Assembly (NCBI GenBank): GCA_030055525.1
Contig: JASFYJ010000004.1
Location: forward strand, 21,103 to 85,102
Length of the DNA: 64,000 nt
Source of the DNA: Archaeoglobales archaeon
GTDB lineage: Archaea; Halobacteriota; Archaeoglobi; Archaeoglobales; Archaeoglobaceae
Direction of reading: 5' to 3'
In this document: piece after piece, positions 32,371 through 61,497 of the stretch
How the letters are laid out: every line of letters starts with the position of its first letter
Position numbering within the stretch: position 1 is the stretch's first letter
Program-made: the position numbers and the translations under genes
Notes under the pieces: model-generated
What the model was told of the DNA's origin: nothing
Database searches by the model: none
Seen by the model: the letters and a program-made list of their open reading frames with translations, nothing else

Positions 32371-32792
32371 CAATCCACCTCCAATTTTGGTTTCAAAGCT
32401 CCAATTCTTCTTAAATCGCTTACCATCTCGTTAACAACCTGAACCCACTTGCTCGCTTCAGCAGCAGAGATCCACTCAAGTCTAAAACGTTCTTTTTCTA
32501 TTCCAAAAGATTCCAAAATTCTTTTGAGAAGTTCAAAACGCCTGTAAGCTTTATAATTCCCTTCAATGTAATGACAGTCAGCTGGTGGATGACAACCTGC
32601 GACTATCACCCCATCTGCACCATCTGCGAAGGCTTCAAGAACAAACTGTGGATCCACCCTACCAGAACACATAACTCTTATAACTCTTACATTTGGTGGA
32701 TAAGAAAGCCTACTAGTACCGGCTAAATCAATCGCTGCATAAGTGCACCAGTTACAAGCAAAAACGATTATCTTAGGTTCAAAATCAGCCAT
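32370..32792 (-). CDS. mvhD: MvhD iron-sulfur subunit
   Basis: About 140 residues, the [2Fe-2S] protein that links the hydrogenase to HdrA. Cysteines: ACNWCTYAAID, VMCSGRVDP, and GCHPPADCHY, all in the standard MvhD arrangement. ATG 32792 is supported by GAGGTGAGAG and overlaps the hdrA stop by 8 bases. In bacterial QmoB this domain is fused to the HdrA-like part; here it is separate but translationally coupled to the gene before it. Confidence 0.92.
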   Translation of the reverse strand: MADFEPKIIVFACNWCTYAAIDLAGTSRLSYPPNVRVIRVMCSGRVDPQFVLEAFADGADGVIVAGCHPPADCHYIEGNYKAYRRFELLKRILESFGIEKERFRLEWISAAEASKWVQVVNEMVSDLRRIGALKPKLEVD

Positions 32793-34734: not shown

Positions 34735-36085
34735 TGAGGACACCTCCGTTTGCAAGAACCCTTACTTCTCTAGCCATAGAACGCTTTGCTATCAGTGCCG
34801 CTCTTGCAGCTGCTGCACTGGCTTCAGTTACAGAATCTGGAATGTCCTTAGCCCCTGCTACTGCTCCAACTACAAAAATTCCTTCAACTGTTGTAGATAC
34901 AGGGTCGAGATATGGATCCTTTAGTTTCACAAATCCATCGCTGGTTAATTCAACTGGTAGAGGTAACCTCGAATTGGGTGTTATAGCTACAGAAAGCACA
35001 ACCATATCGTACTCTTCAACTCTTAAATAGCTCTCGGCAGTGTCTTCATAAACAACCCTAAGATTCTTTGTATCAGCCAATTCTTCAATTCTTACTACTT
35101 TACCGCGAATATACCTTACACCAAACTCTCTTTTTGCTCTTTCCAAGAACTCGTTGAAACCTTTACCAAAAGCTCTGATATCCATATAGTAAACAGTGCA
35201 CTGGACTTCAGGCAAATGCTCTTTAGCCAAAATCGCTTGTTTCGTAGCAGCCATACAACAATATGCCGAACAGTAATGGTTGAATCTAACATCTCTCGAT
35301 CCAACACACTGTATCCATGCAATCTTCTTTGGATGTTTTCCATCTGATCTCCTTAAAATCTCCCCACCACTCGGCCCGGTTGCAGATACTAGTCTTTCGA
35401 ACTCAAGGTTCGTATAGAGGTTCTGATAAACTCCATAACCGTATTCAGGAATGTTCTTAGCGTTGTAAAGCTCCATACCTGTTGCGACAATTATTGCAGC
35501 TACTTTTAATTCGATAACTTCGGATTTCTGTTCGTATTCGATTGCCTTAGTTGGGCAATGCCTTTCACAAACACCACAGAGAGTTTTACCCTCTTTTTTA
35601 GCCTTTTCCGGCGGATTCAATCGCATACAGTATCTAGCATCTATTACTGCCTTTTTTGGGACTGCTTGTGGGAACATGATATATATTGCCCTTCTATTTG
35701 ACAATCCCAGGTTGTAATCATCCGGAACGTTCTTTACAGGACATTTCTGAGTGCAGATTCCGCAACCATTACACTTCGTCCAGTCAACATATGTGGGTCT
35801 TTTAAGCACTCTAACTACAAAATTACCGGCCCTACCTGTAACATCCTCAACTTCTGAGTTCATTAAAAGTTTTATATTAGGATATCTCAAAACTGCAGCC
35901 ATCTTAGGAGCTAGAATACACGAAGCACAATCGAGAGTCGGAAAAGTCTTGTCAAGGTAAGCCATTTTTCCTCCTATGCTTGGGGCTTTTTCGACTAGAA
36001 AAACCTCAATTCCCTGCTCAGCTAAGTCTAAAGCTGCCTGAATTCCGGCAACTCCACCACCTACAACCAAAACACTTCCATTCAT
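34727..36085 (-). CDS. HdrA/QmoA-like flavoprotein (short paralogue)
   Basis: 452 residues, a second HdrA-type protein lacking both the N-terminal CHCG domain and the C-terminal ferredoxin. It begins directly with the FAD motif VLVVGGGVAGIQAALDLAEQG; the HdrA signature TLDCASCILAPKM follows near residue 51. Clusters CNGCGICTQKCP and CGVCERHCP are present, then CVGSRD and the C-terminal FAD segment GIFVVGAVAGAKD. The length and missing ends recall QmoA. It is the second gene of the transcript, 3 bases after the qmoC-like gene. Confidence 0.87.
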   Translation of the reverse strand: MNGSVLVVGGGVAGIQAALDLAEQGIEVFLVEKAPSIGGKMAYLDKTFPTLDCASCILAPKMAAVLRYPNIKLLMNSEVEDVTGRAGNFVVRVLKRPTYVDWTKCNGCGICTQKCPVKNVPDDYNLGLSNRRAIYIMFPQAVPKKAVIDARYCMRLNPPEKAKKEGKTLCGVCERHCPTKAIEYEQKSEVIELKVAAIIVATGMELYNAKNIPEYGYGVYQNLYTNLEFERLVSATGPSGGEILRRSDGKHPKKIAWIQCVGSRDVRFNHYCSAYCCMAATKQAILAKEHLPEVQCTVYYMDIRAFGKGFNEFLERAKREFGVRYIRGKVVRIEELADTKNLRVVYEDTAESYLRVEEYDMVVLSVAITPNSRLPLPVELTSDGFVKLKDPYLDPVSTTVEGIFVVGAVAGAKDIPDSVTEASAAAARAALIAKRSMAREVRVLANGGVLNG

Positions 36086-36088
36086 ATC

Positions 36089-37210
36089 CTATCCCTCTTT
36101 AAAAAATCCCTTTCTTGCGGCTATATAGTAAGCCAAAACCTTGTACAACCAGTGGTTGTGTTTACCGAATGGAACTTCTAGAAGAAGGATTGGAACTATT
36201 AGGCTTAGAACTACGATGTAGAGAATATACGAAAAATAATAGTATGAAATATCGTTTAAAATCAGAATTGCAAGATACAATAGAGCTACTGGAAAGAAAG
36301 CTATTAAAGACATCCAGTCTGTTGAATGTGTAAACTTCTTGTAGTACCAATGAGTCTTCTGCCTTGCAAACAGTCTCTTCATTAGTGGCGAAGAAAAACC
36401 GTAAAGCAGCGAAATTGCTGCAAAATACCCCAAAAATTTTAGGATCATTCCATATGGGTAAATGAAAAAGTAAGATGGCGAAAAAAGATAGAAAAGTAGT
36501 ATCAAAGTGTAAAATCCAAGCCCTAAAAGAATAAAAACGTGTTCAATTATCCTGTCCCGCTTTTCTGGGACCTTAAGGGCATCTTTTTCCACCTCTATAA
36601 AAAATTTTGTAAGTTTTATAATAGAACTCAAAAAACCAACCTTATACTCTTTACCACCTCCAAAAGCCCTATATGCTCTTTTTGCGCTTAAAAATAATAT
36701 TAAAGAAGCAAATAATGCAGAAAAAGCAATTGGATAGCTCAAATCTTTAACTGCAAAAAATTCTGTGCTAATGTAACCTGTCAGTGAGTTCCAATAATAG
36801 AAATAGTAAAAAGAAAGAGAGATCACGAAAACTACAAAGTAGAGGATAAGTTTTTCGAATAATTTTGTCTTATTCCACCACCTAGAGACTCCAAAAGGAT
36901 CAAAAAATCCGCTTTGGTATCTTCTTATGGCTGCCAGTACTTCAGATGGGCTTGCACCACGAGGACAGCTATCTGTACAATCTCCGTGGAGATTACAAGT
37001 CCACGGGGTTATATCCCCCAATATTTTTTCATTTAAACCGATCTGTGTATACCTTATAGCTCTTCTGAAGCTTACATCGATCGACTCAGTAATTGGACAA
37101 ACAGCTGTACAAGAACCGCATTGATAACATTCTAAAAGACTTTTACCTCCCATTTTTATTATCTCTTCTGCAATTTTTGGATTTGCAAACAATATACTAC
37201 TTGCCACCAT
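36089..37210 (-). CDS. QmoC-like HdrC–HdrE membrane fusion
   Basis: A 373-residue protein. Residues 25-95 are an HdrC-type ferredoxin (CYQCGSCTAVCPI; second motif CNLHGDCTDSCPRG), then about six hydrophobic segments (from YFVVFVISLSFYYFYYW to the C-terminal ILYIVVLSLIVPILLL) as in HdrE/NarI-type cytochromes. This is the QmoC layout: it would pass electrons between soluble HdrA-like subunits and membrane quinone. In the second motif a His occupies the second Cys position. Histidines in the membrane part (e.g. HVFILLGLG, KKFTHSTDWM) are candidate haem ligands. First gene of the operon. Confidence 0.85.
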   Translation of the reverse strand: MVASSILFANPKIAEEIIKMGGKSLLECYQCGSCTAVCPITESIDVSFRRAIRYTQIGLNEKILGDITPWTCNLHGDCTDSCPRGASPSEVLAAIRRYQSGFFDPFGVSRWWNKTKLFEKLILYFVVFVISLSFYYFYYWNSLTGYISTEFFAVKDLSYPIAFSALFASLILFLSAKRAYRAFGGGKEYKVGFLSSIIKLTKFFIEVEKDALKVPEKRDRIIEHVFILLGLGFYTLILLFYLFSPSYFFIYPYGMILKFLGYFAAISLLYGFSSPLMKRLFARQKTHWYYKKFTHSTDWMSLIAFFPVALLYLAILILNDISYYYFSYILYIVVLSLIVPILLLEVPFGKHNHWLYKVLAYYIAARKGFFKEG

Positions 37211-38595: not shown

Positions 38596-40323
38596 TTGAA
38601 AAAGGATCTGATCCGAATTCAAGGCGTTTCAAAGAAATTTGATTCAGATTATGTTCTTAAAGACATCAATCTAACGATAAAAGAAGGAGAAGCTTTAGGA
38701 ATTATTGGTCTGAGCGGCAGCGGTAAATCTGTTCTCATTCATATAATAAGAGGTTATAGAGAATACAAACCAACCGAAGGTAAGGTGATATATAACATAG
38801 CTCTGTGTAAAAACTGCTACTGGGTAGATGTTCCAAGTAAGGCAGGTGAAAATTGTTTAAGATGTGACGGAAAGCTGGAAGAATGTGAAGTAGATATATG
38901 GGAGCTCGAAGATAAAGAACTTGCCGCTGCAATTAGGAAAAGAGTTGGTATAATGCTCCAAAGAACTTTCGCTCTCTACAGTGAGCAATCTGCTTTAGAA
39001 AACGTTATGGAAGCTATAAGTAGTGCGGGACTAGATGGGTTCAGTTTTGGAGCTACTAGAAGAGTTGAAATGTTAAGTAGAACTGCATACACAAACGATG
39101 TCATTAACAAAGCTGTAGAATATCTAAAAGCTGTAAATCTTAGCCATAGAATGATGACTCCTGCAAGAGATCTCAGTGGTGGTGAAAAACAGAGAGTTAT
39201 ACTTGCGAGACAGTTGGCAATTGAACCTATAGTACTACTTGCCGATGAACCAACAGGTACGCTCGATCCCGAAAACACGAGGGTAATATTAAATGCTCTC
39301 AAAAAATATATAAAAGATCATGGACGGACGCTTATACTTACATCTCACATTCCTCAAATAATTGAGAAACTATCCGATAGAGTTGTCTGGCTTGATCGTG
39401 GCAGAATTGTTGCTGAAGGTGATCCTAAAAGCATAATTAAAAAATTCTTGGAACAAGTATCCAAAGAAGAAATAAAAACTGAAATTGCTGTAGAGCAGGA
39501 GATACTAAAACTTAGAGATGTGAAGAAATACTACTACTCGGTGAGCAGGGGAGTTGTTAAAGCAGTTGATGGTGTTACGCTAGTGGTAAAAGAGGGAGAA
39601 ATATTTGGGATCCTTGGGCCAAGTGGTTCTGGAAAAACAACGCTTTCAAGAATAATCGCTGGAATAATACCCCCAACGAACGGGGAAGTTTACATCAGAA
39701 TAGGCGATGATTGGGTAGATATGAGAGCACCAGGATTAACAGGAAAAGGTAGAGCAACACCATACATAGGTATCTTACATCAGGAATATGGGCTGTTTCC
39801 TTTTAGATCTGTATTGGAGAACCTTACTGACTCAATAAGTTTGGATTTTCCAGCTGAGTTTGCAAGGATGAGAGCTATAGATGTTCTTATGGGTGTTGGA
39901 TTTTCCAGAGAAGAGGCGGAGAAGATCTTGGAAAGATCTCCGGATGAGTTAAGTGAAGGACAGAGGCATAGAGTTGCATTAGCTCAAGTTATGATAAGAG
40001 AACCGAGACTTTTACTACTTGACGAGCCCTCCGGCACCATGGACCCAATAACGAAAATAGAAGTTGCAAAGACGCTTAACAAGATAAGAGAAGAAACGAA
40101 AGCAACGATAGTTGTTATCTCTCACGACATGGAATTCACACGCCTTGTTTGTGATAGAGTAGCTTTAATGCTTGATGGCAAAATTAGACTCATGGGTTCA
40201 GCAAACGAAGTGATAGAATCGCTTGAAAAACTTGAGTTGAAGATCTCGGAAATTGGAGAAATTGTAGTGAGGAAGGAGGAGGAAGGAATGATAAGTAAAA
40301 CTGATACAAGTTGTGGCGTTTAA
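38596..40323 (+). CDS. atwA: MCR activation component A2 (AtwA)
   Basis: A 575-residue protein with two ABC ATPase cassettes, which binds ATP in the low-potential reactivation of Ni(I) in MCR. First cassette: GLSGSGKSVLIHI, LSGGEKQRVILARQLA, LADEPTGTLDPE. Second: GPSGSGKTTLSRI, LSEGQRHRVALAQVM, LLDEPSGTMDPI. Between Walker A and signature of cassette 1 lies a cysteine-bearing insert (CKNCYWVDVP; CLRCDGKL), a known mark of AtwA that separates it from transporter ATPases. The start is TTG after GGAGGTGG. It ends in TSCGV. It is convergent with the HTH regulator (4-base overlap). Confidence 0.92.
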   Translation: MKKDLIRIQGVSKKFDSDYVLKDINLTIKEGEALGIIGLSGSGKSVLIHIIRGYREYKPTEGKVIYNIALCKNCYWVDVPSKAGENCLRCDGKLEECEVDIWELEDKELAAAIRKRVGIMLQRTFALYSEQSALENVMEAISSAGLDGFSFGATRRVEMLSRTAYTNDVINKAVEYLKAVNLSHRMMTPARDLSGGEKQRVILARQLAIEPIVLLADEPTGTLDPENTRVILNALKKYIKDHGRTLILTSHIPQIIEKLSDRVVWLDRGRIVAEGDPKSIIKKFLEQVSKEEIKTEIAVEQEILKLRDVKKYYYSVSRGVVKAVDGVTLVVKEGEIFGILGPSGSGKTTLSRIIAGIIPPTNGEVYIRIGDDWVDMRAPGLTGKGRATPYIGILHQEYGLFPFRSVLENLTDSISLDFPAEFARMRAIDVLMGVGFSREEAEKILERSPDELSEGQRHRVALAQVMIREPRLLLLDEPSGTMDPITKIEVAKTLNKIREETKATIVVISHDMEFTRLVCDRVALMLDGKIRLMGSANEVIESLEKLELKISEIGEIVVRKEEEGMISKTDTSCGV

Positions 40324-40841
40324 GTTTTTTTACTCTTAAGGGCAGCAATTCTTAAAGCACTCTCCAAATCGCTCTTCGGGATTATCGTTACTATTGGTAC
40401 TCTCAATATTTTTTCCAAGATCGGACTCAATATTGGTGCACAAACTATAGCTTTTGCACCATCTCTCTCAGCTCTAATTGCAGAAACTATGGCTTCATCG
40501 AAGGAGTTCGCAGGGTATTCTTTAACGTTTATTTTCTTACCGTCCACTTCTATTTCATAGCTTAAAAGCTGATTCAAAGCTACCCGAGAAGCTACAACGG
40601 CGATAAACTCCTCCTCGGACTCTAAAAACTTAAATATTGCATTCAATATTTTCCTCAGAGTGCTCAAATTTGGTTCTCTGTTCGCCGAAATTATCTTATA
40701 GAGGGTGCTCAAGGGAATTCCAGCCTCGATTGCAAAATCCTTCAGATTCATACCTAAATCCTTCTTGATCACTTCTTCAAGTTTCTCGCCAAAGTTTTCT
40801 GCATGAAGGAGTGAAAGTACAACCTCAGTATATCTCTTCAC
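40320..40841 (-). CDS. HTH regulator with PrpR_N-like sensor domain
   Basis: 173 residues. Residues 30-75 form a Cro/C1-type helix-turn-helix (LKDFAIEAGIPLSTLYKIISANREPNLSTL). The C-terminal 90 residues (AIVSAIRAERDGAKAIVCAP, ILRVPIVTIIPKSDLESALRIA) look like the Rossmann-like PrpR N-terminal or related sensor fold that binds small organic effectors. It lies between and faces atwA and the importer genes, so it is the obvious candidate to control MCR activation and uptake. Effector unknown; a coenzyme or acyl compound is possible. The sensor assignment is moderate. Confidence 0.7.
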   Translation of the reverse strand: MKRYTEVVLSLLHAENFGEKLEEVIKKDLGMNLKDFAIEAGIPLSTLYKIISANREPNLSTLRKILNAIFKFLESEEEFIAVVASRVALNQLLSYEIEVDGKKINVKEYPANSFDEAIVSAIRAERDGAKAIVCAPILSPILEKILRVPIVTIIPKSDLESALRIAALKSKKT

Positions 40842-40869
40842 ACTTTCCTCTAAAGGTGGATGAGTTTAA

Positions 40870-40941: not shown

Positions 40942-41973
40942 ATGAAGAAGTTGAAAATAGGGATAATGCTTTCTTTGGTATTTCTTGCAGCCTTCTTAGC
41001 TTTCTGCATAAGCGAGGAGCAAAAGGTCAAAGAGATAAGAGTCAGCTACCAGCCGAGTTGGCACCATACAGCCCTGTTTGTAATAATAGAAAAAGGTTGG
41101 GACGAAAAAATTCTTGGTGCTAAGATAGTAACAAGCCCACCATTTGCATCTGGACCACCACAGATGGAAGCCTTTGCATCGGGGCAGCATGATATCGCCT
41201 ATGTTGGCGCCGCTCCTCCTTTATCACTACTTTCTAGAGGTTTTGATGCCAAGATAGTGGCGGTTGCAAACACTGAAGGTTCAGCAATCATTGCAAGACA
41301 AGATATAGTCTACAATGGTCCAAAATCTCTTGAAGGAAAATCAATAATGACTTACCAACCAGGATCAATTCAACATACGGTTCTTATGAAGTGGCTTAAG
41401 GATAACAACGTCGATATTTCAAAAGTAGATATAAAATACGGTGGTCCAGCCGAGATAAGGGAAGCATTAAGAGCTAAAGCTGTAGATTTCGGATTTGCTC
41501 CAGATCCTACACCTTTAGTTGCAGAGATTGAGGGATATGGAAAGATTGTCGCAGAATCTTCAGATCTCTCTCAAAATCATCCATGCTGCGTTGTTTTGAT
41601 GAGTGGAAAGTTCATGAGAGAGAACGAAGAGGTTGCTGCAAAGTTTTTAGCACTGCATATAATTGCAAGCGAGTATGCAAAAGATCCGAAAAACAAAGAA
41701 GAGATAAAGCAAATTTTAATAAAGTGGTTAGGAATCAGCGAAGCTGTAGCCGAAAAATTCCCCGGAACAACGAATCTACAAACAGATCCTAGAGACAAAA
41801 ATTGGCAGAACGGGTTAAATCTGCTCTGTGAAGCACAGTATGAGCTAGGGCTGACAAAAGATAGCAAAGGAAGTCCGGTTAAACTAAAAGCTGAAGATAT
41901 CGTTGATGTTAAACTCTACGAAAAAGCTTTAAGCATGGTGCCCAAAATAAAAAGTGAGCTGGGGTTGAAATGA
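40942..41973 (+). CDS. NitT/TauT/Ssu-type ABC transporter substrate-binding lipoprotein
   Basis: A 343-residue periplasmic-binding-type lipoprotein. The first 25 residues form a signal peptide with lipobox-like AFLAFC; mature start at the Cys. The mature fold is NMT1/SsuA-like: RVSYQPSWHHTALFVIIEKGW, SGQHDIAYVGAAPPLSLL and DFGFAPDPTPLV. Members bind sulfonates, nitrate, thiamine precursors or other oxyanions, so substrate cannot be read directly. It is placed between atwA and F430 genes and followed by its own permease (4-base overlap) and ATPase. Coenzyme M (a sulfonate) is an attractive but unproven ligand. Confidence 0.85.
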   Translation: MKKLKIGIMLSLVFLAAFLAFCISEEQKVKEIRVSYQPSWHHTALFVIIEKGWDEKILGAKIVTSPPFASGPPQMEAFASGQHDIAYVGAAPPLSLLSRGFDAKIVAVANTEGSAIIARQDIVYNGPKSLEGKSIMTYQPGSIQHTVLMKWLKDNNVDISKVDIKYGGPAEIREALRAKAVDFGFAPDPTPLVAEIEGYGKIVAESSDLSQNHPCCVVLMSGKFMRENEEVAAKFLALHIIASEYAKDPKNKEEIKQILIKWLGISEAVAEKFPGTTNLQTDPRDKNWQNGLNLLCEAQYELGLTKDSKGSPVKLKAEDIVDVKLYEKALSMVPKIKSELGLK

Positions 41974-42752
41974 ACTTAAAAAATTTGATAATATTTATTT
42001 TTTCGATTGGAAGTTTTTTTGCCATTTGGGAGATTTATTACTGGATTTTTATAAATAATCCTTTTATCCTTGCTCCACCTTCTAGGGTTATCCCTACATT
42101 TTACGATTTGCTCGCTGGTAACATTCAAGGTTTTTATATGCCTCTAGATGCTATATATAGCCTGTATCATTACTTTCTTGGCTTTACAGTGGCTGTTGCA
42201 GTTGGATTTAGTGTGGGATTAATTGCAGGATGGTATAAAAGAGTAGAAAGGTTCCTATACCCTATCATCGAGCTTATTAGACCGATACCACCGATAGCCT
42301 GGATACCGATTTCAATACTGCTTCTCAAACTTACCCACACTGCTGCGGCGTTCATAATTTTCATAGGATCTGTATTTCCAATACTTTTAAACACAATCTA
42401 CGGCGTGTCTTCTATCGAGAAAAAGTACATCGAGGCTGCCTTAACACTTGGTGCAACAAAAACAAAAGATATTTTTATAAAAGTAATAATTCCTGCCTCA
42501 ATGCCAGCTTTTCTTACAGGTTTAAGGGTCGGTTCCGGAGTTGCTTGGATGTGCGTTGTTGCTGCAGAACTTTTTGGAGTATCCCATTACGGCTTGGGTT
42601 ACAAGATCGAGCTTGGCAGACTCTACCACTCCCCAGACATCGTAATATCTTACATGCTCGCTATTGGTATAGTGGGGCTGTTTTTAGATAGAATTTACAG
42701 AACATTGGAGGCATCCATCGTAAAGTGGAGAAGGGGGTATCTAATTGAGTGA
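41970..42752 (+). CDS. NitT/TauT/Ssu-type ABC transporter permease
   Basis: 260 residues with about six membrane segments. The EAA loop that contacts the ATPase reads EAALTLGATKTKDIFIKVIIPASMPAFLTGLRVG. Short first membrane helix at the N-terminus (LIIFIFSIGSFFAIWEIYYW). Overlaps the binding protein gene by 4 bases and the ATPase gene by 8, so translation of all three is coupled. Homodimer expected. Confidence 0.88.
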   Translation: MNLKNLIIFIFSIGSFFAIWEIYYWIFINNPFILAPPSRVIPTFYDLLAGNIQGFYMPLDAIYSLYHYFLGFTVAVAVGFSVGLIAGWYKRVERFLYPIIELIRPIPPIAWIPISILLLKLTHTAAAFIIFIGSVFPILLNTIYGVSSIEKKYIEAALTLGATKTKDIFIKVIIPASMPAFLTGLRVGSGVAWMCVVAAELFGVSHYGLGYKIELGRLYHSPDIVISYMLAIGIVGLFLDRIYRTLEASIVKWRRGYLIE

Positions 42753-43485
42753 GAACTTTCTTACGATAGTAAACCTGAGCAAGTGGTATGGAAACGGAAA
42801 CATTCATGTACTGGATAACATAAACCTCGATGTTTTCAGAGGTGAATTTGTAAGTCTTCTTGGCCCAAGTGGATGTGGTAAAACTACACTACTCAGAATC
42901 ATTGCCGGACTTGAAAAGCAAGATAAAGGAGAGGTCAGATTAAAAGGTGAGCAGATAGTTGGGCCAGGACAGGATAGAGTCATGGTATTCCAAGATTATG
43001 CACTTTTCCCTTGGCGTACTGTGCTAGGAAATATCCTGTTCGGGCTAGAAGTCAGAAAGATAAAGAAAGAGGAGGCTTTGAAAATAGCACAGAATTATAT
43101 AAAACTCGTAAATCTTGAAGGTTTCGAGAACTCCTACCCTCACGAACTCTCTGGAGGTATGAAGCAAAGAGTGGCTTTGGCGAGGGCATTAGTTTGTGAT
43201 CCTGAAATACTTCTGATGGATGAACCACTCGCTGCGCTCGATGCACAAACCAGAAACATGATGCAGAGTGAACTTGTAAGGATCTGGAGCGCAACGAAAA
43301 AAACGATAATATATGTAACACACAGCATTGAGGAGGCGGTTTACCTCTCAGATAGAGTCATCATTTTTACGCCAAGGCCAGCAAAGGTTAAAAAAATCGT
43401 GAAAGTGGACATCCCAAGACCACGAGACAGGTTTTCAAGAGAATTTGTGGAGTTAAGGGCAAAGATTTACGAACAACTTCACTAA
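42745..43485 (+). CDS. NitT/TauT/Ssu-type ABC transporter ATPase
   Basis: 246 residues. Walker A LLGPSGCGKTTLLRIIAG, Q-loop VMVFQDYALFPWRTV, signature LSGGMKQRVALARAL, Walker B LLMDEPLAALDA and H-loop YVTHSIEEAVYLSDRV are all intact. Sequence is of the SsuB/TauB class. Start is TTG 42745, overlapping the permease gene. cfbE begins 29 bases after its stop with no strong promoter between, so importer and F430 genes may be one transcript. Confidence 0.9.
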   Translation: MSENFLTIVNLSKWYGNGNIHVLDNINLDVFRGEFVSLLGPSGCGKTTLLRIIAGLEKQDKGEVRLKGEQIVGPGQDRVMVFQDYALFPWRTVLGNILFGLEVRKIKKEEALKIAQNYIKLVNLEGFENSYPHELSGGMKQRVALARALVCDPEILLMDEPLAALDAQTRNMMQSELVRIWSATKKTIIYVTHSIEEAVYLSDRVIIFTPRPAKVKKIVKVDIPRPRDRFSREFVELRAKIYEQLH

Positions 43486-43514: not shown

Positions 43515-44900
43515 ATGCGCCCACTAAAATACTGCACAGCGCTTGTAGTGGACATGACTCATGGAGGTGTGGTTATATGTGAGGAATTGCTGAAGAGAGG
43601 CTGCAAAGTACTTGCATTTGATAACCACAGGACTCTGAAGTTTTATGAGGTAGAAAAGCTTAAAAGGTGGGGTGTCGAAGTTTATGATGATGAAAATAAA
43701 ATAAAAATCGATGATGTTGATGTTATAATTGTACAACATGCAGATCCAAACCTAAATCTTTTTAATAAAGCCATTGAAATTGGAATTCCAATAATAAGTC
43801 ACGCAAGGTCTGCAGGGATAATTATTTCCGAATTAAAGGATTCTACCAAGGTCATCGAGATTACGGGAACTAACGGAAAAACTACCGTTGCAAACATGCT
43901 TGCAAAAATTCTCTGCGATGCAAACTTTAATGTCCTGATCCACGATAGCTTAAAAACAAGGATAATTTCGAGCTCGGAAGAAAAAACCCTCGCCGAAGGT
44001 CTCAGTATAACGCCTGCGAATACTATTAAAGCTTTCAGGATGGCCGAAAATTACGATTTTGACTTTGCTATCTTCGAAGTATCTCTCGGCGGAACGGGAG
44101 CTGCTGATGTTGGAATCGTAACCGGTATCTACGAAAATTACAGAGCATCCTTCTTCAGAAACGCGTTCAACAGCAAACTCCAGATGGTCTACAACATGAA
44201 GGATGGTATACTCATTCTCAACGGGGACAACGAGATCTCTAGGAGGTTTTTTAATGCATTCTTTGGTACCTCGAACATCTATGGACTTAAAGAGGGAAGA
44301 GAGCTTAGAGTTAAGAGAGTTGATGAAAAAGTAGATTGCATCGCTGATGCTTTGAAAACATGTAGTGGAAAAGAGTTGAGCTGTGAATTCTCTTTCAAAC
44401 TTGATAAAGCGCTTTTTGGAAGTTTTCAAATACTAAACGCACTTGGTGCTATTGCAGGAGCTTTATCTGTGGATCTAGAACCAGAAAATGCTGTAAAATC
44501 TATAGAAACATTCAAAGGAGTGAAAGGTAGGGCTATAGCAGAATACAAAAAGAGAGGCGTATTAGTTGACTGCTCGAACAGAGGTATAAATGTTCCAGCG
44601 ATAATCTCGGCTTTAGATGAAGCGATAATCCTGAAAAAACAAGGATGCTTTGATGGAGTAATAGTTGCGATATCCGGTTCAGAAAAAGCTGCATGTGAAA
44701 TAATAGACGTTAATAGGTTATCAGATGAATTAAAAAGCAGAGAAATAGATTTCATTGCTCTTTCAGGAGTTTTGGGAAAAAAGCTTGCACAAAAGGGTGT
44801 TGGAGGAGAGGTTTTTGAAAAAATAGGTGAAAAAGAACTCGAAAAACTTTCAGCAAGCTTTAATAACCCTATTGTCCTCATCTTCAGCAATGAAGCTTAA
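43515..44900 (+). CDS. cfbE: Coenzyme F430 synthetase (CfbE, Mur ligase family)
   Basis: A 461-residue Mur ligase-type enzyme catalysing the last step of F430 synthesis, ATP-driven closure of the carbocyclic ring of seco-F430. P-loop GTNGKTT at residues 118-124; central-domain stretch FDFAIFEVSLGGTGAADVGIVT and C-terminal domain with GRAIAEYKKRGVLVDCSNRG. It precedes cfbD and cfbB as in methanogens and overlaps cfbD by 11 bases. Homology to peptidoglycan ligases alone would be ambiguous; the neighbourhood settles it. No cfbA is in this window. Confidence 0.9.
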   Translation: MRPLKYCTALVVDMTHGGVVICEELLKRGCKVLAFDNHRTLKFYEVEKLKRWGVEVYDDENKIKIDDVDVIIVQHADPNLNLFNKAIEIGIPIISHARSAGIIISELKDSTKVIEITGTNGKTTVANMLAKILCDANFNVLIHDSLKTRIISSSEEKTLAEGLSITPANTIKAFRMAENYDFDFAIFEVSLGGTGAADVGIVTGIYENYRASFFRNAFNSKLQMVYNMKDGILILNGDNEISRRFFNAFFGTSNIYGLKEGRELRVKRVDEKVDCIADALKTCSGKELSCEFSFKLDKALFGSFQILNALGAIAGALSVDLEPENAVKSIETFKGVKGRAIAEYKKRGVLVDCSNRGINVPAIISALDEAIILKKQGCFDGVIVAISGSEKAACEIIDVNRLSDELKSREIDFIALSGVLGKKLAQKGVGGEVFEKIGEKELEKLSASFNNPIVLIFSNEA

Positions 44901-45972
44901 AAGTCTGCCCTATGCAGTTCATCCACGACCTAATCCCATAGCGGCGGCACTTTATACGCTCAGAGACTTGAACTGCAGGCATATAATACTCCACGGCCCA
45001 GCGGGTTGCAATTTCAGAGCTTTAAGACTTCTCGAAAGAGATGGTGTAAAGATATTCACAACTTCCCTAAGCGATCTCGACGTAATATTGGGTGGAAAGA
45101 GAAAGCTGATAGAGGTGCTTGAAGCCGTATACAGCGACTTTAAGCCAGAACTAATAGGAGTTGTTGGCACTTGCTGCACAACTATAATTGGCGAAGACAT
45201 CGAAAGCGAGATCTCTGAAGTAAAGATACCTTCAAAAATAATTGCTGCAAACATTTCCGGCTGTGGAGATAACACGGAAGGAGCTATAAGAGTGCTTGAA
45301 GCTGCCCTTAAACTTGGAATAATAGACAAAAATGAGTTCGAGAGGCAGGTCGAAATGCTAAGATTTGCAACAAAAGTTGAGAAGGAGTTCGGTGTAGCGA
45401 TTCCCGGTTATTTACCACCATCTCCTGGAGATGATGTAAGTTTAGTTGCAACGGAGATCATCGAAAAGCTGAAGGAGGGGCTACTTGTTATATTGAACGC
45501 CAAAAAAGAGACTGCTTACCTCTACTCTGACGTGATCCTCGCTGTAAATGAGGCGAAAAAGAAATCTGGTGGAGAATTTAAAGTTATCGCAAACTTGCTT
45601 GAAAACAAAGGACTTCCGAAAGTTAGAGAAGATGCAAGGAACATACTAAAAGAGCTAAGAGAAAATGAAATTGAAATCGAAAAGTTCAGCGGTTCCCTTG
45701 ATGAATACGCTTACTCTGCTCAAATTTCGTTAAAGATTGCTGAGGAGCTAGATTTCTCTTCCGTTTTAGTCCTTGGAATCCCCCAAGCCATAAAGCCTTA
45801 CAGATTTAACTACTCAGTTGGTGTATCTTCAGGAGAAAGAACTATGACCAGACTACGGGATTTAGGTTATTCAAGGGTAGTTAACGAGGAGTCTGCACAT
45901 GTAAATGTCCTTGGAAGTAAGAAAATTGTAAGATCCCAGCTTGGAGATGCAATAAGAAGAGTGATAGCATGA
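44890..45972 (+). CDS. cfbD: Ni-sirohydrochlorin a,c-diamide reductive cyclase subunit (CfbD)
   Basis: About 360 residues, NifD-like partner of CfbC in the six-electron reduction and lactam formation that yields seco-F430. Cluster cysteines: HGPAGCNFRALRLL, GVVGTCCTTIIGED and NISGCGDNTEG. The longer frame starting at 44827 is not needed: ATG 44890 (MKLKSLPYAVHPRPNPIAAAL) matches the family N-terminus and overlaps cfbE. ATGA overlap with cfbB. The CfbC partner is encoded 16 kb away, next to mcr. Confidence 0.9.
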   Translation: MKLKSLPYAVHPRPNPIAAALYTLRDLNCRHIILHGPAGCNFRALRLLERDGVKIFTTSLSDLDVILGGKRKLIEVLEAVYSDFKPELIGVVGTCCTTIIGEDIESEISEVKIPSKIIAANISGCGDNTEGAIRVLEAALKLGIIDKNEFERQVEMLRFATKVEKEFGVAIPGYLPPSPGDDVSLVATEIIEKLKEGLLVILNAKKETAYLYSDVILAVNEAKKKSGGEFKVIANLLENKGLPKVREDARNILKELRENEIEIEKFSGSLDEYAYSAQISLKIAEELDFSSVLVLGIPQAIKPYRFNYSVGVSSGERTMTRLRDLGYSRVVNEESAHVNVLGSKKIVRSQLGDAIRRVIA

Positions 45973-47330
45973 TACCAAGGATAGTAGTAGCAGCCGCTAA
46001 TAGTGGCAGCGGAAAAACAATGATAACCTGTGGAATAGCGAGGGCTTTAAAGAAGAGAGGTTTCAAAGTCCAGACATTCAAGGTTGGACCAGACTTTATA
46101 GATCCAAAATATCACACTCTAGCATCCGGTAGATGCTGTGCAAATCTGGACTCTTGGCTAATGGATGAGGGAACGATACTGAAGGACTTCAGCTACTACT
46201 GCAGCGATGCAGACATTGCAATTATCGAAGGTGTCAGGAGTCTTTACGACTCTTCAGACCCGCTAAGCACAAAAGGAAGTACATATTCGGTTGCAAAAAT
46301 TTTAAAAGCTCCAATAATCCTTACGATAGACGTTCGCGGACTTAACATGGGTGCAGCAGCAATTGTAAAGGGTTTCAAAACGCTGTTCGATGCGGACATC
46401 AGAGGAGTTATACTGAATTCATCCAGGGGAGAGAGACACGAGTTGAAAGCCAAAAAAGCCATTGAAGAATTCACCGGCATAGAAGTTCTAGGTGCAATCC
46501 CAAGAAAAAAAGAACTTGAAATTGAAATGCGCCATCTTGGGCTTGTTACGGTAGAAGAACTAGAAAAAAGTGCTGAAGAAAAAATAAAAATCTGGGCAGA
46601 AGTTGTTGAAGAACGAGTTGATCTGGATAAGCTCGTCAAAATCGCAGAATCTGCAGAAAGGTTAAATACAACCACTAGGGAGAAGGAAGAGATCCTGGAG
46701 GAGGTAGAGATAGCTGTCGCATATGATAAGGCTTTCAACTTCTACTATACCCAAAATCTTGATCTGCTTAAAAATTTAGGCGCTAAGATTCGCATTTTTA
46801 GTCCATTGCAGAAATTTGAGGATTTTGAACAAATTGGTGGAGTGATAATCGGCGGAGGTTATCCCGAGCTTTACGCCTACGAATTCGACGAGAGGACTAT
46901 GAAGCTTTTAAGGGAAAAAATTGAAGATGATTGCCCAGTCTATGCAGAGTGTGGCGGCTTGATGTACCTCTGCAATAATTTAATAAATAAAAATGAAAAA
47001 TTTCGAGGTGTTGGCGTTATAGATGCTGATGCAGTATTTGATACATCGAAAAGGTATCTTGGCTACGCAAAGGGATCTTGCATACGGGAAAACATTTTGT
47101 TTTGTGTAAAAGATAAGATTCAGGGCCACGAATTTCACTATTCATACCTTGAAATCCAAGGAGAGGCGAAATACGCCTACAGACTCGAAAGAGGTTATGG
47201 GATAGATGGTGAGCACGATGGAATTTTGGTCCATAGTACACTTGCATCCTACATCCACCTTCTCTTCTCCGGCCAAGAGAAGTCCTTGAAAAACTTCTTA
47301 GCGAATGCAGTCAGATACAACAAGAGGTAA
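45969..47330 (+). CDS. cfbB: Ni-sirohydrochlorin a,c-diamide synthase (CfbB)
   Basis: A 453-residue CobB/CbiA-type amidotransferase that adds two amide groups to Ni-sirohydrochlorin with ATP and glutamine. N-terminal ATPase domain VVAAANSGSGKTMITCGIARAL; C-terminal class I GATase with nucleophile Cys in YAECGGLMYLCN and the His in GHEFHYSYLE. The surrounding cfbE and cfbD place it in F430 rather than cobalamin synthesis; sequence alone could not separate the two. Ends the importer-cfb gene run; 67 bases follow before mmp2. Confidence 0.9.
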   Translation: MIPRIVVAAANSGSGKTMITCGIARALKKRGFKVQTFKVGPDFIDPKYHTLASGRCCANLDSWLMDEGTILKDFSYYCSDADIAIIEGVRSLYDSSDPLSTKGSTYSVAKILKAPIILTIDVRGLNMGAAAIVKGFKTLFDADIRGVILNSSRGERHELKAKKAIEEFTGIEVLGAIPRKKELEIEMRHLGLVTVEELEKSAEEKIKIWAEVVEERVDLDKLVKIAESAERLNTTTREKEEILEEVEIAVAYDKAFNFYYTQNLDLLKNLGAKIRIFSPLQKFEDFEQIGGVIIGGGYPELYAYEFDERTMKLLREKIEDDCPVYAECGGLMYLCNNLINKNEKFRGVGVIDADAVFDTSKRYLGYAKGSCIRENILFCVKDKIQGHEFHYSYLEIQGEAKYAYRLERGYGIDGEHDGILVHSTLASYIHLLFSGQEKSLKNFLANAVRYNKR

Positions 47331-47397: not shown

Positions 47398-48342
47398 ATG
47401 GCTGAGATCGATCTGGGCAGAGTTGTAATTGAACTCAGAAACTGGCCTGGGTTGACAAGGAAAAAATTTGCTGGAAAACTGGCAGAACTCGTAGATGATT
47501 TTTTTGGAGAAGATGCAGGTTATTTTAGCTTGGGAGAAACAGAAGTCGTTTTTACTGTAGATGGGATATGGCACAAAGTTTTGGAACAGGATCTTTACTG
47601 GGGTGGTTTTATTTCCATCCTCGTCAACGTTCACGACGTCTATGCGATGGGAGCAAGAGCGGTATATGCTGTTAACGTGATATCTGTAAGGGATGAGAGT
47701 CGCTTGGATGAGATAAAAAAGGGTATGCTTGATGCAGCGAAAAAATATGGGGTTAGGATCGTAAAAGGCCATGTACATCCAGATGCACCTTTTGACTCTG
47801 TAGAAGTAGCGATGATAGGTTTTGCAAAGAAAGGTTGCCTAATAAAGTCAAACAAAGCAAAAAATGGAGATAAGATAATTGTGGCGATTGATACCGACGG
47901 TAAACCACATGAAAAGTTCATTTACAACTTCGATTCAACGAAGAAGGATGCAGAGTTGCTGAGAAAACAACTCAATTCTATGGTTCTATTAGCTGAAAAA
48001 AAACTTGTAAACGCAGGAAAAGACTTAAGCAATGCCGGAATTGTGGGCACTATAGCTATGATGCTCGAAGTCAGCGGAAAGGGAGGATTTGTAGATTTAG
48101 AAAGGATTCCAAAGCCTGAAGACGTTGGTTTGATCCAGTGGTTGAAAAGCTATCCCGGCTGTGGCTTCTGTGTCACTACACAGTACCCTGAAGAAGTGGT
48201 ATCCATCTTCGAGTCCCATGGACTTGAAGCAAATATCGTAGGCTCTGTCGATTCTTCTAAGGTATTCAAAATCGGATATGCAAATTCAACTCAAACTTTC
48301 TTCGATTTTAACAAGGAGAGTGTCTTGGGGTTAAAGTACTGA
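47398..48342 (+). CDS. Methanogenesis marker protein 2 (AIR synthase-like)
   Basis: A 314-residue protein of the AIR synthase/SelD/HypE superfamily known from methanogens as marker 2. Characteristic stretches: YFSLGETEVVFTVDGIWHKVLEQDLYWGGFISILVNVHDV (N-terminal dimer domain; glycines and Asp of the ATP site) and GKDLSNAGIVGTIAMMLE (C-terminal domain). Its reaction is unknown; activation of a carboxyl or thio group with ATP is a guess from the superfamily. CTTTTAAATC lies about 28 bases upstream, so the mRNA is probably leaderless and separate from cfbB. Confidence 0.85.
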   Translation: MAEIDLGRVVIELRNWPGLTRKKFAGKLAELVDDFFGEDAGYFSLGETEVVFTVDGIWHKVLEQDLYWGGFISILVNVHDVYAMGARAVYAVNVISVRDESRLDEIKKGMLDAAKKYGVRIVKGHVHPDAPFDSVEVAMIGFAKKGCLIKSNKAKNGDKIIVAIDTDGKPHEKFIYNFDSTKKDAELLRKQLNSMVLLAEKKLVNAGKDLSNAGIVGTIAMMLEVSGKGGFVDLERIPKPEDVGLIQWLKSYPGCGFCVTTQYPEEVVSIFESHGLEANIVGSVDSSKVFKIGYANSTQTFFDFNKESVLGLKY

Positions 48343-49801: not shown

Positions 49802-49828
49802 AAAATTTTTATTTTTTATGGTGATGAA

Positions 49829-51771: not shown

Positions 51772-51780
51772 GGTGGTGAT

Positions 51781-56678: not shown

Positions 56679-58010
56679 ATGAAGTATAAGGACAAAATAG
56701 ACCTTTATGACGACAAAGGGAAGTTGGTTGAATCCGATGTGCCCCTTGAGGCTGTTAGCCCATTGCTGAACCCAGCGATCGAGGAGATTATAAAAATTAT
56801 ACGCAGATCTGTTGCAGTAAACTTGGCGGGAATCCAGAAGGCTTTGGAGACCGGCGCTGTAGGTGGCGAAAGATGCATTATCCCTGGAAAATCGTTGAAG
56901 CTTGATATCGTTGGAAATGCGGGTGCTATTGCAGATAAAATAAAGAAGACCTTGGCTGTGGCAAAAGATGACGATACAGTGGTGCAGCTCATCGATGGTG
57001 GTAAAAATCTGCTTGTACAGGTTCCAACAATAAGAATACTGAAAGCTGTAGAGTATACAGCTCCGATAACTGCTGTAGCTGCTGCCGTGACTGAAGCTAT
57101 AATCGACACGTTTAACGTGGACATGTTTGATGCTCCAATGGTTAAAGCGGCGGTTTGGGGAAGATATCCGCAGTCCATGGATTTGATGGGTGCAAACGTG
57201 CAGTCTCTGCTTTCAGTTCCACAGCAGAATGAGGGTTTAGGATATGCTTTGAGAAACGTTCCGGTCTCGTACATATCCACGATTACAAGAAGAAACGCTA
57301 TGAATGCCGCGTCGCTTTCTTCGATATTCGAACAGACTGCCATGATCGAAATGGGAGACGCAGTTGGTTCCTTTGAAAGACTCCATCTTCTTGGCCTAGC
57401 TTATCAGGGCCTCAATGCAAACAACCTGGTATATGATCTTGTAAAGGAAAACGGAAAGAATGGTTCCGTAGGTACGGTAGTTGCAAGCCTTGTTGAGAGA
57501 GCAGTTGAAGATAAAGTTATCAAACCGAATGGAAAAGGCCCATCTGGATATGTAACATACACTACAAGTGATATAGCACTCTGGAACGCTTACGCTGCAG
57601 CTGGTTTCCTAGCGGCTGCCATGGTAAACTGTGGTGCACAGAGAGCGATGCAGAGCATATCTGCGGTCACAGTATACTACAACGACCTGCTTGAAAGGCA
57701 GACTGGATTGCCATCCGTTGACTTCGGTAGAGCTCTCGGTTTGGGTGTAGAATTCTCGTTCTTCAGCCACTCCATATACGGTGGTGGAAGCCCAGTTATC
57801 TTCCATGGCAACCATATAGTTACGAGACACAGCAAAGGATTTGTAGCTCCAGCTATCGCAGCTGCGATCGCTCTTGATGCTGGTACAGTCTATTACAGCC
57901 CAGACAGGATAGCTGGGATAATAGGACAAGTGTTCAGCACGATACCCGTGCTCAGAGAGCCACTGATACATGTAGCGAGGGCTGCAGGGCAGATAAAGGA
58001 CAAGGTGTAA
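56679..58010 (+). CDS. mcrB: Methyl-coenzyme M reductase beta subunit
   Basis: A 443-residue McrB. Methane-type features: [29 protein letters not shown], and IVTRHSKGF, the loop that lines the substrate channel. The segment after SIYGGG reads SPVIFHGNH, where the methanogen enzymes I recall have GPGIFNGNH; otherwise the channel is conserved. First gene of mcrBDCGA, the common methanogen order. The start codon follows GGAGGTG. Together with McrA and McrG it forms the (abg)2 complex binding two F430. Confidence 0.97.
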
Positions 58011-58014
58011 ATCG

Positions 58015-58401
58015 ATGCTCCCCTCCCTCAGGGAAGAGATTGAGATATTTCCCTATAGGATAATGGGAGCTAAAACTGTTGAAAACTTACTTAACGAGAT
58101 ATCAAATCTTGAAGGAGTAGAGGGAGTATTCATCCACGGCCCAAGTGTAAAAAGTGATGTTAAAGAAAAGATAGTGGTTAAAGGTGAAGAAGCAGAGCTT
58201 CGAGTTGCACCGAGCAGGTTGATAATAAGAGTTAAAGATGCCGACTTGGTAATGGACAAATTGAAAGCCATATGTGATCAAATACTTACATACGGCTATT
58301 CAATAAGGACAGGCAAGTTCACAAGAGACCAGCCAACGCTGCATGATTATAAAGTTCTGTATATAATGCAGCTTAGAGAATCCAGAGAGGATGAAGAATG
58401 A
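58015..58401 (+). CDS. mcrD: MCR operon protein D
   Basis: A 128-residue McrD, a small protein that interacts with MCR and probably assists assembly or F430 insertion. Pattern: EIEIFPYRIMGAKTVENLLNEISNLEGVEGVFIHGP, followed by a strand-rich middle. Starts 4 bases after the mcrB stop and overlaps mcrC by 4, so it is translationally coupled. It is often missing from alkyl-type Mcr operons; its presence supports a canonical methane-type system. Confidence 0.92.
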   Translation: MLPSLREEIEIFPYRIMGAKTVENLLNEISNLEGVEGVFIHGPSVKSDVKEKIVVKGEEAELRVAPSRLIIRVKDADLVMDKLKAICDQILTYGYSIRTGKFTRDQPTLHDYKVLYIMQLRESREDEE

Positions 58402-59018
58402 AAATCGGTAGAGAAACACAGTTCGTCGACTGTAGAGAGGCAATGGGGATCGGTTTAGGTGGAGGTTTGGCCCAGAGAGGAACGATCTCTGTAGGTTACT
58501 GTGGAAAAAGGCCATCTGATGTAGTAGTCATCTCGATGTCCCCATCGACGAGACATGTTACAAAACCAGTATGTGAAATAACGGCTGGTTTAAGAAGAGA
58601 AGGTATAAACGCGAGTGTTCTCGTACTTAACGCAGGATCAAGCGCACCTCCGGGTGCTTCAGCATCAAAAGGTGGCTATGGGTCACACTTTGGGTTAAAA
58701 ATTGAAGAGATAGACAGAATAGCAAAACATAAGCTATGCATTATACATCTGGGTAACGTAAAACATCATGTCGTTGCTAAAGCCAAGGCTATACTTAGGT
58801 ATGTGCCGATAAAGGGCGTTATAGTTTGCCAGTGTCCTTTGACATTTGAAGACCTAGTTAAAGCTGGCGTAAAAACGAGAGTTGCAAGCCCTGAAAATCC
58901 TGAAACCCTGGGGGAGGTAGTAGAGATAGTAACAGATGTTGTGCGTGGGCAGAATTGCCCACCGGAGAAAATAGATGAGATTTGTGAGAAAGTGAAGAGG
59001 CATATTAATTGGGGGTGA
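58398..59018 (+). CDS. mcrC: MCR operon protein C
   Basis: A 206-residue McrC, identified in the literature as part of the MCR activation complex that includes AtwA. Conserved stretch: GLGGGLAQRGTISVGYCGKRPSDVVVISMSPSTRHVTKPVCEITAGL; further Cys in VCQCPLTFEDL. Overlaps mcrD and lies 6 bases before mcrG. Its cysteines may bind cluster or disulfide intermediates. Confidence 0.94.
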   Translation: MKIGRETQFVDCREAMGIGLGGGLAQRGTISVGYCGKRPSDVVVISMSPSTRHVTKPVCEITAGLRREGINASVLVLNAGSSAPPGASASKGGYGSHFGLKIEEIDRIAKHKLCIIHLGNVKHHVVAKAKAILRYVPIKGVIVCQCPLTFEDLVKAGVKTRVASPENPETLGEVVEIVTDVVRGQNCPPEKIDEICEKVKRHINWG

Positions 59019-59024
59019 AAATGT

Positions 59025-59819
59025 ATGGCTGATATAAAAGTTAAGGGTGGAAAGTACAAGCCCGCATATCCCGGGCAAACGATCGTGGCTGAAAATAGAA
59101 GGAAATACCTAGATCCAAACTACGAGCTTAGGAAACTGAGATCGATTTCCGACGAAGACGTAGTCAGATTGCTCGGCCATAGAGTTCCAGGCGAAGCGTA
59201 TAAATCCGTTCATCCGCCACTTGAAGAACTCGGCGAACCACCATGCCCGATTAGGGAGCTAGTTGAACCTACGCCTGGTGCTAAGGCGGGAGATAGAATT
59301 AGATACATTCAGTTCACAGACTCCGTCTACTTCGCTCCGCTGGCTCCATATGTAAGAAGCTGGATGGCCTTCTGGAGATACAGAGGTGTCGATCCTGGAA
59401 CCCTCTCTGGCAGAGCTCCGCTTGAAATGAGAGAGCGTGATTTGGAGCTTGTTGCAAAGGAGTTACTTGAAACTGAAGTATTTGATCCAGCAAGGGTTGG
59501 GGTTAGAGGAGCTACAGTACATGGCCACTCGTTAAGATTGGATGAAAATGGATTGATGTTCGATGCTCTTAGGAGGTACGTATTCGACAAAGAGAAGGGA
59601 GAGGTTGTGTACGTAAAGGATCAGGTCGGAGTACCTCTCGAGACCCCAGTGAGAGTTGGAAAACCGCTGCCGGAGGAGGAGTTAAAGAAGTTGACGACGA
59701 TCTATAGAGTAGATGGTATATCAACGAGGGACGATCCCGAACTGCTCAACTGGGTAAAGAGGATCCACTTACTTAGAACCTATGCCGGATTTAAGTTAAA
59801 TAAGGCTGAAAATATGTGA
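59025..59819 (+). CDS. mcrG: Methyl-coenzyme M reductase gamma subunit
   Basis: A 264-residue McrG. Family core: [42 protein letters not shown] with KAG near the F430 edge, [33 protein letters not shown], and [22 protein letters not shown]. Start ATG 59025 lies in GTGAAAATGTATG, with the ribosome-binding site GGGGGTGA upstream. Gap of 10 bases to mcrA with GAGGTGG in it. Confidence 0.97.
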
Positions 59820-59829
59820 GGTGGTTTAG

Positions 59830-61497
59830 ATGGCCGATAAGAAGTTATTTATTGATGCCCTGAAGAAGAAATTTAAGGAGGAGCCAACGGATAAATATAC
59901 GAAGTTCTACATCTATGATGGTTGGAAGCAGTCTGCAAGAAAGAGAGAATTCGTAGAATGGGCACAGAAGATTGCCAAGGAAAGGGGAATTCCTGCATAT
60001 AATCCCGAAATGCATCTCGGTGGAATTCCCGTTGGGCAGAGAGTTTTGATGCCCTACAAGATCTCAGGCACTGATGTATACTGTGAAGGCGATGATCTGC
60101 ACTACATAAATAACGCTGCAATGCAGCAGGCGTGGGATGATATAAGGAGGACAGTTATTGTTGGTTTAGATGCTCCACATGCACTGCTTGAGAAGAGGTT
60201 GGGCAAAGAGGTTACTCCGGAAACGATAAACGAATACCTTGAAGTTCTCAACCATGCATTGCCAGGTGGTGCAGTAGTTCAGGAGCACATGGTTGAAATT
60301 CATCCAGCACTCGTTGCAGATTCCTATGTTAAGGTCTTCACAGGTAACGATGAGCTTGCAGACCAGATAGACAAGAGGTTCTTGATAGATATAAACAAAC
60401 AATTCCCGCCAGAGCAGGCTGAGGCTTTAAAGAAGGCCATTGGCAAATCGCTCTATCAGGTAACAAAAGTTCCGATAATCGTTGGCAGAGCAGCAGATGG
60501 AGGTACTATTTCAAGATGGTCTGCGATGCAAATAAGCATGGCGATGATATCATCTTACAAGCTGATGGCCGGTGAAGCTGCAATCGCTGAGTTCGCATTT
60601 GCAGCGAAGCATGCTGAAGTAATTCAGATGGCGACCCTTACACCTTGGAGAAGAGCCAGAGGTCCGAATGAGCCTGGTGGCTTACCGTTTGGTTACCTAG
60701 CAGATATAGTACAGACAAACAGGAAATACCCAGATGATCCCGTTAAAGTTGCTCTTGAAACGCTTGCTATTGGTTCAGTTATCTTCGATCAGCTCTGGTT
60801 CGGAATCTACATGTCTGGTGGTGTAGGATTCACCCAGTATGCAACAGCCGTTTATACAGATGATATCCTCGACGACTTCTGCTACTACATCGCGGACTAT
60901 GTAAAGAAGAAATTTGGTGGATTTGCAAAGGCTCCAAGGACGATGGACACAATCTTGGATGTTGCAACCGAAGCTACACTCTATGGACTTGAACAGTATG
61001 AGAGATTCCCGGCGCTCATGGAGACGCACTTTGGCGGATCACAGAGAGCTTCAGTTCTTGCAGCAGCATCTGGCGTTGGAGCTGCAATCGCAACTGGAGA
61101 TGCTCAGGCGGGAGTTAATGGCTGGTATCTCTCAATGATCCTGCACAAGGAGCACATGGGCAGACTTGGCTTCTACGGCTACGATGCCCAGGATCAGATG
61201 GGTGCTTCAAACAGCTTCTCATACAGAAGCGACGAGGGCTTGCCATTGGAGCTTAGAGGTCCGAACTATCCGAACTATGCAATGAACGTTGGGCACACTG
61301 GCGAATATGCAGGTATCGTAGCAGCTGCTCACGCAGCTTGCAAGCATGCCTGGTGCGTGAACCCAATAGTCAAGGTAGCATTTGCAGATCCATCGCTGAA
61401 GTTCGACTGGACAGAGCCGAGAAAGATGATTGCAAAGGGTGCTCTGAGAGAGTTCATGCCGGATGGCGAGAGAGACGCGGTAATTCCGCCGCACTAA
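59830..61497 (+). CDS. mcrA: Methyl-coenzyme M reductase alpha subunit
   Basis: A 555-residue McrA carrying the F430 site. Methanobacterium-numbered residues are found in place: F430 axial ligand Gln151 ([10 protein letters not shown], alpha-147), His261 (alpha-257), Arg275 (alpha-271), Tyr337 (alpha-333, FTQYATA), Gln405 (alpha-400, GGSQRA), Gly450 (thioglycine alpha-445, LGFYGYD) and Asp455 (alpha-450). Differences: Met457 where S-methyl-Cys452 occurs, Ala453 for Leu448, and Ile326 in [10 protein letters not shown] for Ser. Last subunit of the operon. The sequence is methane-type, not alkyl-type. Confidence 0.98.

Follow-up and report, generated by a model that had tools for sequence, protein, structure and literature searches.

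The window, the whole 64,000-nucleotide stretch of DNA that we analysed, belongs to an Archaeoglobaceae genome (a MAG of 1.56 Mb, 98.5% complete) whose host is a heat-loving, methane-making archaeon. Between 38596 and 47330 we read atwA, an HTH gene, a three-gene ABC importer and cfbE-cfbD-cfbB, followed by methanogenesis marker 2 and, about 8 kb past that marker, by mcrBDCGA (Table 1). The binding-protein gene overlaps the permease gene by 4 nt, the permease gene overlaps the ATPase gene by 8 nt, and 29 nt separate the ATPase gene from cfbE, which runs in the same direction. The HTH gene is convergent with atwA, overlapping it by 4 nt, and divergent from the importer across a 100-nt gap. An earlier sequence-only reading of this DNA had given the same gene order, coordinates, overlaps and 29-nt gap, all of which were borne out by the open reading frames of the window and their family matches; it had correctly described the HTH gene as convergent with atwA, and had missed its divergence from the importer. 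The assignments of cfbD and atwA exceed their curated cut-offs, while those of cfbE, cfbB and marker 2 are best matches that fall slightly short of theirs. All mcr genes of the window exceed their cut-offs except mcrD, with 90 bits against 100.

Table 1. Features of the importer locus and of the mcr operon, in window positions
Feature	Position	Strand	Family evidence or remark
atwA, MCR activation component A2	38596..40323	+	TIGR03269 743 bits, cut-off 517
HTH regulator, proposed CoM-responsive	40320..40841	-	PF01381 27.5 bits; divergent from importer
Candidate operator dyad CCTCTAAAGG	40847..40856		HTH-importer gap, CCT-N4-AGG
Binding lipoprotein, SsuA-like (NMT1_2 family), predicted CoM binder	40942..41973	+	PF13379 99.5 bits
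ABC importer permease	41970..42752	+	PF00528 80.6 bits; NtrB/TauC/SsuC/SaoP-like, each below cut-off
ABC importer ATPase	42745..43485	+	PF00005 119.8 bits; SaoA/NtrCD/TauB-like, each below cut-off
cfbE, coenzyme F430 synthase	43515..44900	+	NF033197 232.5 bits, cut-off 250, best match
cfbD, reductive cyclase catalytic subunit	44875..45972	+	TIGR03282 387 bits, cut-off 268
cfbB, Ni-sirohydrochlorin a,c-diamide synthase	45969..47330	+	NF033195 493.5 bits, cut-off 560; cobB subfamily 474 vs 261
Methanogenesis marker 2	47398..48342	+	TIGR03267 312 bits, cut-off 365, best match
mcrBDCGA operon, CoM consumer	56679..61497	+	TIGR03257, 03260, 03264, 03259, 03256

Other genes in and near the window are recorded here for completeness. 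Upstream, on the opposite strand, positions 32785-37210 encode two HdrA-like proteins and a QmoC-like protein (qmoC model 138 bits, cut-off 300); a comparable Mvh-Qmo-Hdr cluster has been discussed in the literature for Ca. Methanoglobus hypatiae. The stretch from marker 2 to the mcr operon includes, at 48449-55733, an ABC importer of the branched-chain-amino-acid type and two CoA-transferase-like genes. About 9 kb beyond the window end, an mtaA-like domain (G000:C11:94055-95044) lies in a 598-aa open frame, larger than MtaA alone, and the same is seen in genome G052.

The binding protein has 343 aa, with a lipobox-like AFC and Cys22, and its PF13379 (NMT1_2) score, against a gathering score of 24.7, places it among NitT/TauT-type proteins. 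Its best NCBIfam model, that of the SsuA subfamily (TIGR01728), gives 134.4 bits, below the threshold of 163.5, so that it falls outside the subfamily as curated; binding proteins linked to the HTH gene elsewhere score 180.8, 186.9 and 191.1 on this model. The Sao importer gives the top NCBIfam score for both permease and ATPase, but all three subunits stay below its curated cut-offs (SaoX 51.7 of 300, SaoP 161 of 295, SaoA 289.6 of 360), as they do below the TauABC equivalog cut-offs (TIGR01729 47.4 of 304, TauC 116 of 342, TauB 237 of 357). We compared an AlphaFold model of the binding protein (mean pLDDT 88) with known structures by Foldseek. The first match was E. coli SsuA (2x26_A; TM 0.72/0.79, 21% identity), with Xanthomonas SsuA and TauA just after it and NrtA, CmpA and thiamine-type folds weaker. 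The modelled fold is thus nearest to SsuA and then to TauA: it is the fold of the E. coli proteins (2x26, 6ssy), from which the window protein differs in being an archaeal lipoprotein of only 21% identity. The weaker fold matches and the NtrB-type score of the permease are what an importer of nitrate, bicarbonate or a thiamine precursor, located here by happenstance, would explain. Such an importer is very improbable, as the binding protein matches no thiamine or nitrate NCBIfam model over the listed threshold and the regulator is linked to CoM genes, as described below. On family scores and fold we dropped the nitrate and thiamine readings, and with them the tetrapyrrole and metal readings.

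We examined the conservation of the locus across the ten genomes of the genus. The binding protein is present in every one, the nine others being 57-72% identical to that of the window, and other Archaeoglobaceae gave distant matches only. The block from atwA through the HTH gene and importer to cfbE-cfbD-cfbB is kept in six of the ten (G000, G046, G050, G051, G052 and G053), which indicates that the arrangement is more than chance. Five of these six carry mcrA and make up all the mcrA-positive genomes of the genus; the exception, G050, is 73% complete. Marker 2 lies on the opposite strand in the four other genus genomes where it was seen and is therefore placed outside the conserved operon. 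A divergent HTH gene adjoins the binding-protein gene in nine of the ten genomes, G049 having none adjacent.

The remaining four genomes (G047, G048, G049 and G054; 84%, 78%, 99% and 91% complete) retain the importer away from the cfb genes, and family searches found no mcrA, mtrA or full-length mtaA over cut-off in them, absences that weigh less for G047 and G048 because of their lower completeness. In G047, G048 and G054 the HTH gene is retained beside the importer, with gatC beyond it. The tie to MCR that the sequence-only reading had drawn is not absolute, since these four relatives keep the importer. In them the importer could serve some other use of CoM or the uptake of other sulfonates, or MCR could have been lost recently. 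These genomes also bear on an importer of some other MCR-related precursor (nickel, a tetrapyrrole or a coenzyme B precursor) and of no sulfonate. F430 synthesis genes do follow within 29 nt and in the same direction in six genomes, but the importer is not near them in the other four, and its family comprises importers of sulfonates, taurine, nitrate and thiamine precursors rather than of nickel or tetrapyrroles. We regard this alternative as scarcely credible, and the suggestion in the earlier reading that an F430 precursor or a metal might be imported found no support.

CoM is 2-mercaptoethanesulfonate, and the sequence-only reading had proposed checking for its synthesis genes. Family searches of the ten genus genomes, on which all gene absences given here for host and genus rest, found in none of them a comA over cut-off or a cysteate synthase at the threshold used; their comDE scores equal the TPP-enzyme background of all control genomes, and matches to the ComF/MMP16 model stayed near 180 bits, half the cut-off score. 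Matches of this size occur across MCR-free Archaeoglobi too, and we did not take them as ComF, reading them instead as the related L-ASST. The mcrA-positive genomes of the genus carry mtrA (five of five) and mtaA over cut-off (four of five); with the synthesis genes undetected, they appear to use CoM without a known route to make it. The host is thus a CoM auxotroph in the genomic sense, its 98.5% complete MAG containing MCR and none of the known CoM synthesis genes; this predicted auxotrophy concerns known routes, and the host may have a novel one. Ca. Methanoglobus hypatiae, a cultivated methanogen of the Archaeoglobi, was grown with CoM added, which is not the same as a requirement, and its methane production is halted by the CoM analogue BES (PMC10945360).

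According to a review, ssuABC are CoM transporter genes found in almost all methanogens (PMC10658910), and the ssuABC product of Methanosarcina acetivorans has been termed the CoM-specific ABC transporter (PMC12068725), whose three-subunit SsuABC-type make-up the window importer shares. For the present analysis we defined a working group, the HTH-linked CoM-type importers of MCR archaea, whose members would be expected to transport CoM; the window importer is assigned to it by the divergent conserved HTH gene beside its binding-protein gene and by its tree grouping. In a quick tree of binding proteins, in which circularly permuted rows are unreliable, the window clade, a korarchaeon and a Nezhaarchaeon cluster with the importers of other MCR archaea (a group of 30 rows, support 98), which have the same divergent HTH regulator alongside; the importers of Archaeoglobaceae genera without mcrA fall outside the group. 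This split does not depend on the tree alone, because in the proteins of those genera the two halves have changed places. The window importer is putatively orthologous to the M. acetivorans ssuABC. Compared with methanogen ssuABC, the window clade has diverged (identity about 35%, score below the SsuA_fam cut-off), several residues close to the N-terminal binding loops differ, the importer sits with atwA and cfb genes, and the host is without CoM synthesis genes. In short, we read the importer as a divergent variant of the CoM importers already known from methanogens, set within a cluster of MCR-maturation genes.

The swapped order was seen in HTH-linked binding proteins at L086 8890-9939, L088 3925-5217, L137 5388, L139 8614 and others, which look circularly permuted, with the DHPCC lobe first and the DLHELA lobe second. 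They were found in Archaeoglobi without classical mcrA (genera g2, g3, g6 and g16) and likewise in a few MCR-bearing genomes (G055 and G181).

The gene order is also partly kept in other phyla and so is not unique to the host. In the korarchaeon Ca. Methanodesulfokora washburnensis (L080), atwA and the importer form one run, without the HTH gene, near markers 3, 5/6 and 15 and CfbC. In the Nezhaarchaeon WYZ-LMO8 (L085), ComF/MMP16, a gene of unknown function, and the importer with the HTH gene follow one another in that order, with marker 8 about 4 kb on. Family searches found comDE over cut-off in neither genome. The korarchaeal binding protein is nested in the genus clade of the quick tree with modest support (84, drawn open). 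The mcrABG of the window lineage is nearest to that of the same korarchaeon, at 77-83%, in a study whose Archaeoglobi MAGs include WYZ-LMO2, a member of the genus of the window (the Methanomixophus paper, PMC7380581). Importer and MCR may thus have moved together between korarchaeon and genus, in a direction that we do not assign. None of the outcomes that the sequence-only reading had named as speaking against it (a binding protein in a clade with another proven substrate, a gene order unique to this genome, or full CoM synthesis genes without co-regulation) was found.

We then consider the HTH gene, which matches PF01381 (27.5 bits) and no NCBIfam model. It is present in 230 of the 346 genomes of the host phylum, mostly as one copy and as two in 13. 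Of the 193 genomes whose mcrA exceeds the cut-off, 190 have it, against 40 of the 153 others (Fisher's p 4e-52, a value that ignores shared ancestry). We read 58 HTH loci, picked for breadth across families, a few of which supplied additional members, so that the set is not a random sample. A binding-protein gene lies beside the HTH gene in 40 of the 58 (counted from maps), mostly with permease and ATPase, and five of these 40 also hold CoM synthesis genes (L152, L183, L186, L188 and L189). Six further loci have CoM synthesis genes and no importer in view (L131, L184, L187, L191, L193 and L194), and 12 have neither, some of them at contig ends. At some loci a single adjoining operon reads hdrCB-comF-cysteate synthase-comDE-ssuA-ssuC-ssuB; for example, NCBIfam models assign an hdrC-hdrB fusion, ComF, cysteate synthase, sulfopyruvate decarboxylase and SsuA at L189. 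These are the same kinds of genes as those that go up in CoM-starved M. acetivorans, namely ssuA, ssuC, cs, comDE and hdrABC (PMC12068725). One genome with mcrA undetected, G057, has the HTH gene with cysteate synthase, comDE, two binding proteins, permease and ATPase, and genera g2, g3 and g6 combine the HTH gene and a permuted binding protein with no mcrA.

Several observations on these loci stand apart. In family f7, some genomes have a fused gene of the hdrC-hdrB type at the head of the operon for CoM synthesis and import (L189 8917-10524 and L188 6123-7706). The G057 operon, at L086 5615-11434 with the HTH gene divergent, looks like one for CoM or sulfoacetaldehyde synthesis without MCR. 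Several genomes of family f5 have a surface-type protein of about 1,100-1,300 aa convergent with the HTH gene (L123 8410-12219 and L140 8863-12294).

The HTH loci also bear on how broad the substrate range may be. A wider sulfonate importer, taking taurine, isethionate, sulfoacetate or others for their sulfur or sulfite, with CoM one of its ligands or none and the placement among MCR genes partly incidental, would fit the retention of the importer in relatives without detected mcrA, the many sulfonates accepted by SsuA and TauA folds, and the sulfate-reduction genes that a sister lineage paper reports in some members (PMC7380581). Elsewhere, however, the same regulator and importer type share an operon with CoM synthesis, and the regulator tracks mcrA; on this evidence from gene order and co-occurrence we judge the wider role unlikely.

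In the HTH-importer gap we spotted the dyad CCT-N4-AGG. With one A/C choice allowed, it recurs in the gap of eight of nine genus loci, whereas 500 mononucleotide shuffles gave 0.64 on average and 4 at most. It is a candidate operator only, because the genus sequences in which we noticed it by eye are also those that were later counted. In genus g48 of family f5, a more independent test, all seven of the loci read contain it; over the 58 loci it occurs in 11 (mean 3.4 and maximum 8 in 300 shuffles). The strict form TCCTN4AGGA is absent from the window, and we claim the looser dyad alone. The PDB contains no sequence match to the effector domain of the HTH protein, and the fold matches to this domain all have low TM, so we assign it no ligand. 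Its Cys-Ala-Pro is invariant in 25 aligned homologues (Cys134 in the window), a possible sensing residue. No description of the regulator was found in the open-licence literature searched, which is no proof of novelty; it is a more novel part of the system than the importer.

Taken together, the undetected synthesis genes, the linkage of the HTH gene to CoM operons, the SsuA/TauA-like modelled fold and the conserved gene order favour CoM or a very close sulfonate as the substrate, in support of the sequence-only reading that the importer brings in CoM or another sulfonate. The main difficulty is the retention of the importer by four relatives without detected mcrA; the binding-protein score below the SsuA cut-off, the differing residues near the binding loops, and the genera (g2, g3 and g6) that keep the HTH gene and a permuted binding protein without mcrA also weigh against it. 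The three genes probably encode an ABC importer that supplies MCR in a host without known CoM synthesis. The SsuA-like lipoprotein would capture CoM outside the cell, and the permease and ATPase would carry it inward; MtaA and Mtr would load methyl groups onto it, and MCR would consume the methyl-CoM. The divergent HTH protein may respond to CoM supply and act on the HTH-importer gap, while co-transcription from the ATPase gene through cfbE-cfbD-cfbB could couple CoM uptake to F430 synthesis. More speculatively, and on balance doubtfully, the HTH protein could be an undescribed, near-universal CoM-responsive regulator of both uptake and synthesis in the methane and alkane archaea of the phylum, with MCR-less Archaeoglobi importing CoM (or, in G057, making it) for a role unrelated to methane.

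Our analysis predicts that methanogenic Archaeoglobi, and perhaps the methanogenic korarchaeon, live on scavenged CoM. If so, the activity of Archaeoglobi methanogens would depend on CoM released by other organisms, which bears on their cultivation and on the spread of methanogenesis by gene transfer. A regulator that nearly every MCR-bearing genome of the phylum carries, together with its candidate operator, would, if confirmed, show how making and importing an essential cofactor are balanced.
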